Both the position numbers and the translations under genes were made by a program. DNA of 64,000 nucleotides, from assembly GCA_040754335.1 (NCBI GenBank), contig JBFMCV010000002.1, positions 434,001 to 498,000 on the forward strand, given 5' to 3'. Positions 45,711-62,367 of this stretch are shown here, piece by piece. Under the pieces are notes generated by a model. That model had not been told where the DNA came from and did not search any database. It worked only from the letters and a program-made list of their open reading frames with translations. The stretch is from Thermodesulfobacteriota bacterium (lineage in GTDB: Bacteria; Desulfobacterota_D; UBA1144; Nemesobacterales; UBA2774). Numbering within the stretch: position 1 is the stretch's first letter; the number at the start of each line of letters is the position of its first letter.

Positions 45711-47777
45711 TCAGTCCTTACCATATATACGTAAGGACCTCCTCAAATAGATTAATACCGGTAAAAACAGGAGAGGCAGGAGCGCTGCCGGTGTTTCCGT
45801 GCTTCGGGATAATACGAGAGCGCAGCTCCCTCCCTTGTCCCCGCTGCTCTCGGGGTCGAGCTGGTCGGGTATGCCGTCGCCGTCGGAGTCCCTTATCACT
45901 AGCGGAGCTCCGCCCCTCTCCGGATCGAATATGTCGAGGAGCCCGTCACCGTTCGAGTCTTCGGTCGAATCCGGCAGCCCGTCGCCGTCAGCGTCCGTTC
46001 CGCCGTTCTCCTCGTAATCGGACCCGCCCTGGTCGTCGGAATTAATGTCGTGCGAGTCGGCTATACCGTCCCCGTCCGTGTCCGCGCACTTGAGCATATT
46101 GCCTCCCTCGGCGGGGTCGTATTCGTCCGGAAGGCCGTTCTGGTTCGCGTCAACATCGGAATCGACCTCGCCGTCGTCGTCCGCGTCGCCTGATCCGCCG
46201 CACTCGTAATGGTCCGTGAGCCCGTCGTTATCGGAATCGAGGTCGCGCCTGTTGGGGATGCCGTCCGCGTCCGCGTCGTTCGGCGTGCCGACGAGGTCGC
46301 CCTCTGCGTTCGTTGTGACGGCCTGGTTCCCGGACTCCGCGCTGTTCATGACCCCGTCGTTGTCCGTGTCCGCGTCGCCCGAATTCTGCACGCCGTCCCC
46401 GTCCGTATCGTTCGGGCAGAAGTTGACCGTGTAGTTGACGGCCTGGTTTCCTGAATTCTGGCAAGCAAAAAGCTTTATCGCGTCGTCGTAAGGGAATGCG
46501 TATGAAGTCGGGCTGGATGTGTTGAATACCACTGCGACAGGCTGGGCTATGGACTGCCAGTCGGAGTTATTCCCCGCCACGCACGCGCCGTCGGGCGCGC
46601 CGTTAGGATATCCCGGCGCCCAGGATGGGCACCCGCAGCAGTTGGAGTCGGTCGTGCCCGTCGTGAAACACGAGCCCGCGTTCGGCCCCGAGCACGCCCA
46701 GAGGTTGCCGTATGTGGTGATGCCGTCCGTGGTAGCTGTGTCGCAGTCGGCGCCGAGTATGACGGGGTTCGCCTTCGACTGCTCGCAGTAGCCCGAAGCC
46801 CCGCAGTTGAACGTATACGGGGGGCCGCAGTCGCCGTCCTGCGAGCACGCCTGCCTGCAGAATTTCTGGGGCGCAAAGCAGCCGGCGTAGGTCGTTCCCT
46901 GGTTCTGGTCGCTATTCAATATAAGCTCGGAAGGACAGTTCGCCTGGGAGACGGCAAGTCCCGACGAGCCCGTCCACGGGGACGAGGGGAGGTCTGACTG
47001 CGCGAGCCCGCTAGGGGCGCATCCGGAGGTGTCGGTACAGCCGGGGCTCCCGCAGAAGAAGGGGTTCACGCACATGTTCAGATTGGGGTCGCATTTCCAT
47101 TTGTAGCCGAACCCGAAGAGCTGGTAGCAGTCCGAATCCTGCGTGCAGGTGGACGAGCTTGTGCCCGGAAGATTGCCGGTGAATATGCAGTTGCTGTTGC
47201 CGGAGCAGGTGTAGTCGGAGGAGTTAGGGATTATTTCGACCGCGACGTTGCCGCCGTCGACCATGCTGACGTCGTAATTATCTTGTCCTCCAACCCCTGA
47301 AGCGAGAGTGAACTCGGCGAGCGTCGCCGGCGGCAGGCCCGGATTTACGCAGTTGAGCACGAAGTTTCCTCCTCCGTCCGTGCATCCCCCCGTGTCGCAG
47401 CAGTTGGCTATGACGTAATTGTTGCCGTTCACGTTCACGGTCTGACCGGTGCAGCCGTCAGACGCGTTGAAGCTGCAACCAGTCCGTCCCCAGAACCTAC
47501 CCGAATAGTTGTTCGGCACGGTAACGGTGGCCGTGGCGTTCTGATCGAGCTCCCATCCGCTGAGCGTGCTTATGGCCCCGGGGTCACTTCCGCCCGATAT
47601 GGTACCCGAGGTTATGCCGGGGACAGCCCCGACCCATATGGTCTCAGAGCAGTAGTTGTTTATGGTTATCGTCGCCTGGGCATGTGCGGTCTTGCCGCCG
47701 CCCGCGTTAATGAGAAGCGCCATAAATGAAGCGAGGATGATTAAAGAAGACAGTCTAGTGAATTCCGTAAATCGCAT
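45711..47777 (-). CDS. Thaumatin-family surface protein with type-3 calcium repeats
   Basis: A 688-residue exported protein. After a signal peptide (about 1-33) comes a thaumatin-like domain (about 34-270 with Cys-rich extension): ITINNYCSETIWVGAVPG, GRFWGRTGCSF and LAEFTLASG...YDVSMVDGGNVAVEI. A Cys-rich middle region (to about 440) follows. Residues about 455-645 are thrombospondin type-3-like repeats (DTDGDGVQNSGDADTDNDGV and similar), which bind calcium. The C-terminus SCALVLSRS...TPAALLPLLFLPVLIYLRRS looks like a Cys-containing CTERM sorting signal. AAAGGAGG precedes the ATG. It is expected at the cell surface; bacterial thaumatin-like proteins have no settled role. Confidence 0.85.
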   Translation of the reverse strand: MRFTEFTRLSSLIILASFMALLINAGGGKTAHAQATITINNYCSETIWVGAVPGITSGTISGGSDPGAISTLSGWELDQNATATVTVPNNYSGRFWGRTGCSFNASDGCTGQTVNVNGNNYVIANCCDTGGCTDGGGNFVLNCVNPGLPPATLAEFTLASGVGGQDNYDVSMVDGGNVAVEIIPNSSDYTCSGNSNCIFTGNLPGTSSSTCTQDSDCYQLFGFGYKWKCDPNLNMCVNPFFCGSPGCTDTSGCAPSGLAQSDLPSSPWTGSSGLAVSQANCPSELILNSDQNQGTTYAGCFAPQKFCRQACSQDGDCGPPYTFNCGASGYCEQSKANPVILGADCDTATTDGITTYGNLWACSGPNAGSCFTTGTTDSNCCGCPSWAPGYPNGAPDGACVAGNNSDWQSIAQPVAVVFNTSSPTSYAFPYDDAIKLFACQNSGNQAVNYTVNFCPNDTDGDGVQNSGDADTDNDGVMNSAESGNQAVTTNAEGDLVGTPNDADADGIPNRRDLDSDNDGLTDHYECGGSGDADDDGEVDSDVDANQNGLPDEYDPAEGGNMLKCADTDGDGIADSHDINSDDQGGSDYEENGGTDADGDGLPDSTEDSNGDGLLDIFDPERGGAPLVIRDSDGDGIPDQLDPESSGDKGGSCALVLSRSTETPAALLPLLFLPVLIYLRRSLRIYGKD

Positions 47778-60990: not shown

Positions 60991-61156
60991 CGGCGGGGGT
61001 CTCCCGGCCGGAAACCCTCGCAATCATATACCGTATTCTCAACGCCCTAAGAAACCCGTTGCAGTCCGCGTCTCCACGCTTTAAAATCTTATTGTTCGTA
61101 ATTCGGTCGGGGTGCGCGAGCGTCCCGGCCGTCGAACGTCACGGGGGGATACGGCC

Positions 61157-61774
61157 ATGCTTAAAAACACGTCCTTCATAATGTTCTGCGTTACTGCGAT
61201 CGTTATATCGGCGGGGTGCGCGAGCCTGGCGGGGGACGAGGCCCCTCATGTGTGCGGCGGGGCGCTCGAGGTCGCATGCCCGGACGGGCAGTTCTGCGAA
61301 ACGCCCGCGGGCAAGTGTTCCACGGTCGGGATCGAGGGTCTCTGCACGGACAAGCCCCAGATCTGCACGAGGGAGTATAAGCCCGTATGCGGGTGCGACG
61401 GCAGGACATACGGGAACGACTGCGAAAGGAAATCGGCCGGGGTGAGGAAGGACCACGACGGGAAGTGCGGCGAGGCCGCGAGCTCGCGCAAGGAGCCGGG
61501 ACAGGCGTGCGGAGGTCTCGACAACGTCAAATGCCCGGAGGGGCAGTTCTGCGAGATACAGTTCGGGAGGTGCAAGGGGTTGAACGAGATCGGGGAATGC
61601 ATGGTGAAGCCCGAGATGTGCACGCAGGACTACGTGCCCGTCTGCGGGTGCGACGGCAAGACCTACGGGAACGACTGCGCGAGGATGGGGGCCGGCGTGG
61701 CGAAGGACCACGACGGGGAATGCGGGGTGGCGGAGGAAGAAGCGGAGCCTGAGGAAGAGGAGCCGGAGAAATAG
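61157..61774 (+). CDS. Lipoprotein with two Kazal-type inhibitor domains
   Basis: A 205-residue lipoprotein. The signal ends with lipobox ISAGC (Cys20). It has two repeats of about 80 residues, each made of a short Cys-rich lead (CPDGQFCETPAGKCS and CPEGQFCEIQFGRCK) and a Kazal domain (PVCGCDGRTYGNDCERKSAG and PVCGCDGKTYGNDCARMGAG). Kazal domains inhibit serine proteases by substrate-like binding. The C-terminal tail is Glu-rich. ATG 61157 is used since the lipobox follows it at the right distance; GGGGGG is upstream. It may protect the envelope against secreted proteases. Confidence 0.9.
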   Translation: MLKNTSFIMFCVTAIVISAGCASLAGDEAPHVCGGALEVACPDGQFCETPAGKCSTVGIEGLCTDKPQICTREYKPVCGCDGRTYGNDCERKSAGVRKDHDGKCGEAASSRKEPGQACGGLDNVKCPEGQFCEIQFGRCKGLNEIGECMVKPEMCTQDYVPVCGCDGKTYGNDCARMGAGVAKDHDGECGVAEEEAEPEEEEPEK

Positions 61775-62094
61775 GTGCGGAATTAAAGATTGAGGGGAAA
61801 TTAATTGTTCATTCGTAGTTTTCCCCCTTTGACAAAGGGGGATTTAGTTTTATCCCGTTTGTCCTGAGTTTAGCCTGTCCTGAGCGAAGTCGAAGGGTCG
61901 AAGGACGTGCTATTTATCCTGTCTTTGCGAGCGGAGCTGACGAAAGTCAGCGTAGCGCGGCAATCTCCTGAAAAATATGAGATCGCTACGATCCAAATAC
62001 GCTCTCGCGATGACAGTAAGGTTTTGTCACTCTGAGCCATGTCGTGAACTCGTTACAGGATCGTTTTAGAATCTCGTTTTAAATCCTCCCTAAC

Positions 62095-62277
62095 CTATTT
62101 TGACTTTAGCAACATTCAACCGGAAGTTAATTTACTACTATGACTTTGCTGTCATGGAGTCCGGTTCTTACTATTATGGCTTCTGTTGCTACGGTGCGAA
62201 GAATTAGTAAATTTCGTGGACTCATCCATTAGAGACCAATTCCTCATTCGCTCGGAATTGTTGCTCAGAACCGTTCT
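62095..62277 (+). repeat. Hairpin-invading element, copy 17 (nested double)
   Basis: Host arms are AATCCTCCCTAACC and CTAAAGGAGGG. The outer copy starts TATTTTGACTTTAGCAACAT and reaches CGGTTCTTA at 62162-62170. The matching half CAGAACCG follows only at about 62266-62273. Between the two halves lies a second copy ending CAATTCC-TCATTCGCTC-GGAATTG (about 62237-62260). So one element sits in the terminal hairpin loop of another. Confidence 0.8.
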
Positions 62278-62367
62278 TTGCTAAAGGAGGGAATTAAACG
62301 CAAAGGATGGGAAAAAATCTCACCCCCACCTGAATCCTCCCCACTCAAGCGGGAAGGGATGTATGGA

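Follow-up and report, generated by a model that had tools for sequence, protein, structure and literature searches.

A short mobile repeat nested in the end hairpin of its own kind, and its probable insertion into folded hairpins

How do the two arms of a seven-base-pair stem come to lie about a hundred nucleotides apart? The question is raised by an intergenic locus in the window, as we call the whole stretch of 64,000 nucleotides of a Thermodesulfobacteriota bacterium that was analyzed (contig JBFMCV010000002.1, positions 434,001 to 498,000). Read directly from the sequence, the arms CGGTTCT (62162-62168) and AGAACCG (62267-62273), which form the 3′ hairpin of a repeat unit, hereafter the outer core, have 98 nt between them. 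A preliminary description had put this distance at about 95 bases and had taken the intervening bases for another copy of the element with a CAATTCC/GGAATTG hairpin of its own, and this is indeed what we find. The gap is filled by a second, inner core (62172-62262) sitting in the loop of the outer hairpin, with the arms CAATTCC (62237-62243) and GGAATTG (62254-62260), and this core matches the covariance model of the family over its full length (model R1, E = 4.4e-13, 91 of 91 positions). A short non-autonomous mobile repeat is present at the locus in two copies, one within the other, and a third palindromic repeat encloses both. We consider it likely that the family inserts into folded hairpins and in this way nests in itself.

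All parts of the locus lie on the + strand. The third, outermost repeat (62081-62297) is a C-rich palindrome with a left part (AAATCCTCCCTAACC, 62081-62095) and a right part (CTTTGCTAAAGGAGGGAATTAA, 62276-62297); uninterrupted copies of the AAATCCTCCCTAACCCTCCTTTTCCAAAGGAGGGAATT type, which support the left part, are present elsewhere in the genome. The preliminary description gave the range 62095-62277, which is correct to within a few bases, and did not include this outermost layer. Within it the outer core extends from 62096 to 62275. Its 5′ part up to the interruption (62096-62171) is supported by profile and covariance model matches and by a composite at L011:8540-8772, to which the window composite is 83% identical over 233 nt. 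The stem arms of both cores are supported by sequence and covariation, those of the outer core also by the analysis of the junctions. Of the outer loop TAC is left before the insert (62169-62171) and, again from the junctions, GCTC after it (62263-62266); together these are 7 nt, whereas intact loops have 10 or 11, so that 4 nt are missing. According to alignment A1, the outer core ends with TT (62274-62275).

The two halves of the outer copy can be recognized independently of the insert. A profile built from simple copies only matches the 5′ half (62081-62171, E = 5e-19) as well as the tail (62261-62303), and it also recognizes the insert of the sister composite (L011:8630-8757) as a family copy (E = 6e-9). 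A BLAST search with 62050-62320 against the window's own genome gave 47 matches, which split into three modules corresponding to the inner part and, on either side of it, the left part and the right tail of the outer element. Where the left part is joined directly to the tail, the outer element is intact and its loop is short, for example CCGGTTCT-TACGCTTGCTC-AGAACCG; such elements with the loop TACGCTTGCTC or a similar one are present at L011:11275, L012:160, L018:9324 (-), L019:14311 and L020:666. Because these paralogous uninterrupted elements exist, the outer element is shown to be older than the inner one, and the earlier suggestion that the nesting reveals an order of events holds on this basis.

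The family to which both cores belong is gene-less and, after iterated alignment, has a consensus of 91 columns. It begins with TAWTTTGGCTT, continues with a middle motif TTGCAATCAGCC (or GCCTTTGTTG) and GCGACC or GCGTCC, and closes with the 3′ hairpin, a 7-bp stem with a loop of 10-11 nt, which makes up only the 3′ third of the unit. Across 53 copies this stem is paired in 95.4% of cases with 88 double-changed cells, values reached by none of 500 shuffles, and the outer stem at the window is therefore not due to chance. Mutual information over the core recovered the same stem and a 2-bp mini-stem within the loop, and no other strong helix. With the covariance model, at least 149 copies are detected in the window's genome. 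Our catalogue holds 128 full copies in 1.03 Mb of genome; as it was built from stretches around matches, copies are overrepresented in it, and it does not sample the genome at random. The copies are mostly intergenic, only 10 of the 128 lying inside a called open reading frame. At L012:3232-3322 (G000:C2:561232-561322) a core seems to interrupt a coding-like stretch (DUF559-like by eye), and a similar uninterrupted stretch, 81% identical to the interrupted one over 95 columns, is found at L012:1619-1713.

The distribution of the family is narrow. Across the phylum the covariance model had matches in 13 of 58 genomes, all from one Dadabacteria family, of which 16 genomes were sampled (4 carriers belong to the genus and 9 are others); none of the 42 phylum genomes outside this family had copies. 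A protein of the window helped to assign the group, and with it the window's genome, to Candidatus Dadabacteria. Among the carriers are G000-G003, G005-G010, G014 and G015, whereas G004, G011 and G012 lack the repeat. Eight non-Dadabacteria genomes reached through loci similar to the cytochrome gene of the window likewise had none, and an exact pattern scan of GTDB contigs, a set that may lack the own genome and those close to it, gave no match. A search of the window against Rfam at gathering scores found no RNA family.

That the element's own loop is a target, as had been proposed, is supported by 17 nested composites with a recognizable outer 5′ half, which cluster into 12 groups at 70% identity and into 15 at 75%. 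The deepest nest (L010:16704-17075; G000:C2:534704-535075) consists of four cores within a repetitive extragenic palindrome (REP) of the TGTC type; its 3′ arms follow in exact reverse order, and its third layer has a relative with an uninterrupted hairpin at L017:9237-9323. Further nests are present in related genomes (L045, L046, L048 and L049), some with inner copies of another subfamily. One could suppose instead that nesting happened once, long ago, and that transposition, gene conversion or duplication later multiplied the composite as a whole. The close resemblance of the window composite to its sister fits this idea, as does the clustering at 70% identity of the composites at C2:421562, C2:546631 and C2:496172 and of those at C8:116382 and C2:632499. 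We nevertheless regard it as improbable, since the composites form so many groups, the outer copies sit in differing host palindromes, the inner copies come from differing subfamilies and one locus has four levels.

Nearly all of the 127 copies examined interrupt a palindromic repeat, and when the core is removed the joined flanks match, in most cases, uninterrupted palindromic repeats of the same genome. Three kinds of host repeat are distinguished: C-rich palindromes, with AAATCCTCCCTAACCCTCCTTTTCCAAAGGAGGGAATT as an example (class a); REPs of the TGTC type, among them ATTCCCGA-loop-TCGGGAATGACA, ATSCTGAA-loop-TTCAGSATGACA and GATTGCC...CTCGCAATGACA (class b); and 3′ hairpins belonging to further cores (class c). 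Sorting by simple patterns and inspection assigned 58, 37 and 19 copies to these classes and left 13 unsorted, most of them visibly (b) or (c), the counts being approximate; altogether the 3′ hairpin of a further core hosts about 25 copies. In 30.7% of the copies the junction is bridged by a perfect stem of 6 bp or more, compared with 5.2% for flanks with permuted partners (maximum of 200 permutations, 11%) and 5.0% for random intergenic points, an excess of about six-fold over the latter; perfect stems were counted because the comparison of flank duplex energies is confounded by GC content. Insertions are found at loop positions of unrelated stems, among others ATTCCCGA, ATSCTGAA, ATTTC, the GATTGCC type and CCGGTTCT.

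Insertion is accompanied by a loss of loop bases. In the family's own hairpin 2+4 or 3+4 nt are left of 10 or 11, and in the CTGAA-REPs 0+1 nt are left of 5; in both, exactly 4 loop nucleotides relative to the 91-nt core are lost most often. A figure of 3-4 nt is safer, since the final column of the core may be part of the target. No target duplication was seen at the junctions inspected. Four copies (G000:C2:427566, C2:256896, C2:569561 and C3:3057) have left and right flanks from different host repeat classes, which suggests recombination between copies or adjacent deletion.

On the complement, the four bases that precede the right junction are nearly always three purines and one base (GAGC, GAAC, GAAT, GAGG, AAAG or GGGG), and the right junction in the window (62263-62266) is one of these; some sequence preference is therefore likely. 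Could such a linear motif, common in hairpin repeats, be the whole target, folding being irrelevant? These flanks, and AAGT as well, do occur in all main classes. The motif, however, is found everywhere, yet nearly all copies are in palindromes, and the recurrent offsets from stems of unrelated sequence as well as the six-fold excess of spanning stems over random intergenic sites make this explanation an unlikely one.

Core orientation is shown to be tied to the replication strand, whatever the direction of the genes. Where the local GC skew is positive the two orientations are found in a ratio of 60:19, where it is negative in a ratio of 12:35 (Fisher p = 4e-8), and the link holds within each class of gene pair, co-directional, convergent and divergent. 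In the sampled G000 stretches the host TGTC-type REPs have a weaker bias (53:13 at positive and 16:15 at negative skew; p = 0.007). As to which strand folds, the stem mismatches of the + strand comprise 47 A-C versus 21 G-T (counts uncorrected for shared descent), and where the + strand has a conserved T.C mismatch, the complement has G.A. Both point to the complement as the folded strand, which calculated folding of single-stranded DNA favors only slightly.

The strand bias and the location of the copies bear on the possibility that insertion is random and that copies survive only in repeats which are already neutral. Almost all copies are intergenic, and the hairpin repeats of the genome are strand-biased too, which could reflect deletion of unfavorable orientations. 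Random insertion, though, should hit stems no less often than loops and should not spare plain intergenic DNA, and selection does not explain the recurrent replacement of 4 nt at fixed loop positions, so that we think this account very unlikely. That there was no insertion at all, and that structured RNAs or terminators gained internal helices by local evolution, can practically be dismissed: as RNA the region folds better than shuffled sequences do (z = -2.6), but the inner part is a dispersed family member found alone in other contexts, strong covariation is limited to the 3′ hairpin and the paralogous empty sites strongly disfavor it.

Several observations nevertheless weigh against successive insertion into folded hairpins. 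No orthologous empty site was found for the window locus in the available relatives: the SDR gene was found in G001, G002 and G006, but the DNA between the genes has been rearranged there or cannot be aligned, and a 20-kb comparison within the genus showed that intergenic repeats are turned over, so that the order of events rests on paralogous sites. In the C-rich palindromes, which host about half of the copies, it is the 5′ arm, a few base pairs from the loop, that is interrupted. With the complement as the probable folding strand but the + strand usually on the lagging-strand template, a plain IS608-like scheme does not fit. The orientation bias may reflect retention or differential loss of hairpins instead of insertion. 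Finally, among Y1 and IS110-type transposases, reverse transcriptases and integron integrases no enzyme tracks the family in the genomes searched. The earlier proposal that the target is a hairpin structure and not a fixed sequence is thus largely supported by the insertions in loops of unrelated stems and by the excess of spanning stems, and has to be qualified for the entry into arms of C-rich palindromes and for the purine-rich flank.

With respect to the enzyme, G001-G003 and G005-G010 lack Y1_Tnp (PF01797), although most of them have tens of copies; the draft genomes are incomplete, but gaps can hardly account for its absence in nine carriers. G000 has one weak, RAYT-like Y1 match (C8:99575-99868, L029), which we rejected as the driver since Y1 genes do not co-occur with the family. 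About 0.9 kb downstream of this gene a core interrupts a GAGATTGCC-type REP. Within the family of genomes the IS110-type DEDD transposase (PF02371) was found only in G001 and reverse transcriptase (PF00078) only in G012, itself without copies, and for the integron integrase (TIGR02249) no match exceeded the cut-off, only Xer-like recombinases being present. The copies have diverged, and the mobilizing enzyme may therefore be gone, or it may be of an unrecognized type. Elsewhere in the window two genes encode proteins with domains unusual in bacteria, a thaumatin domain (45711-47777, -) and Kazal inhibitor domains (61112-61774, +).

We compared the family with known systems. REPs carry GTAG or CGTC/TGTC tags, and the CGTC/TGTC-REPs, which are one host hairpin type of the core, are said to lack a dedicated transposase; REPs inside other palindromes have been described for GTAG-23 of T. 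roseum, for GTAG-15 dimers of A. variabilis and for CGTC-1 dimers of H. neapolitanus (Di Nocera et al. 2013, PMC3733652). Like REPs the core is short, gene-less, intergenic and of high copy number with compensatory changes in its hairpin. Unlike them it has about 91 nt, with a conserved body of about 60 nt beside the hairpin, and enters many unrelated hairpin families and repeatedly its own hairpin. It is not a palindrome of 20-40 bp with an unpaired GTAG or CGTC end tag; on the + strand many copies have CGTC or CGAC ahead of the stem. Palindromic repeats are also entered by the insertion sequences ISPsy8, ISPa11, ISPpu9/10 and ISRm19/22, which target REP hairpins, ISPsy8 at the symmetry axis of the predicted hairpin (PMC1525189). 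These, however, are of kilobase scale, encode a transposase and use one REP consensus each, whereas the gene-less core uses many stems including its own.

With IS200/IS605 and the REP/RAYT systems, the latter including hairpin-bulge-hairpin REPs (Quentin et al. 2018, PMC6006769), the family shares hairpin ends, a strand bias linked to replication and the lack of a visible target duplication. The skew-tied orientation agrees with use of the lagging-strand template, although the probable folded strand is opposite to expectation; moreover, most carriers have no Y1 gene, the core has no recognizable guide or cleavage tetranucleotide, and it replaces about 4 target bases. The DEDD transposase of IS110/IS1111 and the reverse transcriptase of group II introns and retroelements do not accompany the family. 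In integrons, folded single-strand hairpins (attC) recombine and cassettes insert beside an element with a similar hairpin. The core differs in that it inserts in the loop and not at an R-box boundary, and no IntI was found above the cut-off. Miniature inverted-repeat transposable elements are non-coding, dispersed and 70-300 bp long (PMC3733652). The core resembles them in these respects, but its ends, TAWTTTGG...CGTT, are not inverted repeats, and no target duplication was seen.

We judge the family to be REP-like non-autonomous elements that were inserted into folded, probably single-stranded, hairpins at replication. In such a scheme insertion would take place at folded single strands exposed during replication. 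A nuclease or transposase recognizing hairpins and acting in trans would cut the looped-out hairpin near its loop; the cut would fall on the complement strand, 3′ of a purine-rich tetranucleotide, and the single-stranded core would be joined in place of about 4 loop bases. As the core carries a hairpin of the target type at its own end, every insertion would provide a new target, and nesting would be open-ended. More tentatively, and with considerable doubt, the family could represent a lineage-specific kind of tiny single-strand element which selects its site by hairpin shape, replaces about 4 loop bases, carries its own target and depends on an enzyme outside the known hairpin-targeting families.

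It is already known that REPs are targets of insertion sequences (PMC1525189) and that REPs insert in other palindromes (PMC3733652). In the open-access literature searched we found no gene-less element which repeatedly enters its own end hairpin in addition to many unrelated stems, and hairpin-targeted insertion of short repeats was mentioned only in passing. The family in this genome offers more than 100 natural insertion events at many unrelated stems with an order readable from the nesting, which makes the questions of structure or sequence and of the strand involved testable. It points to a hairpin-cutting activity, and one such repeat can generate mosaic, layered intergenic regions like those of many uncultured bacteria.
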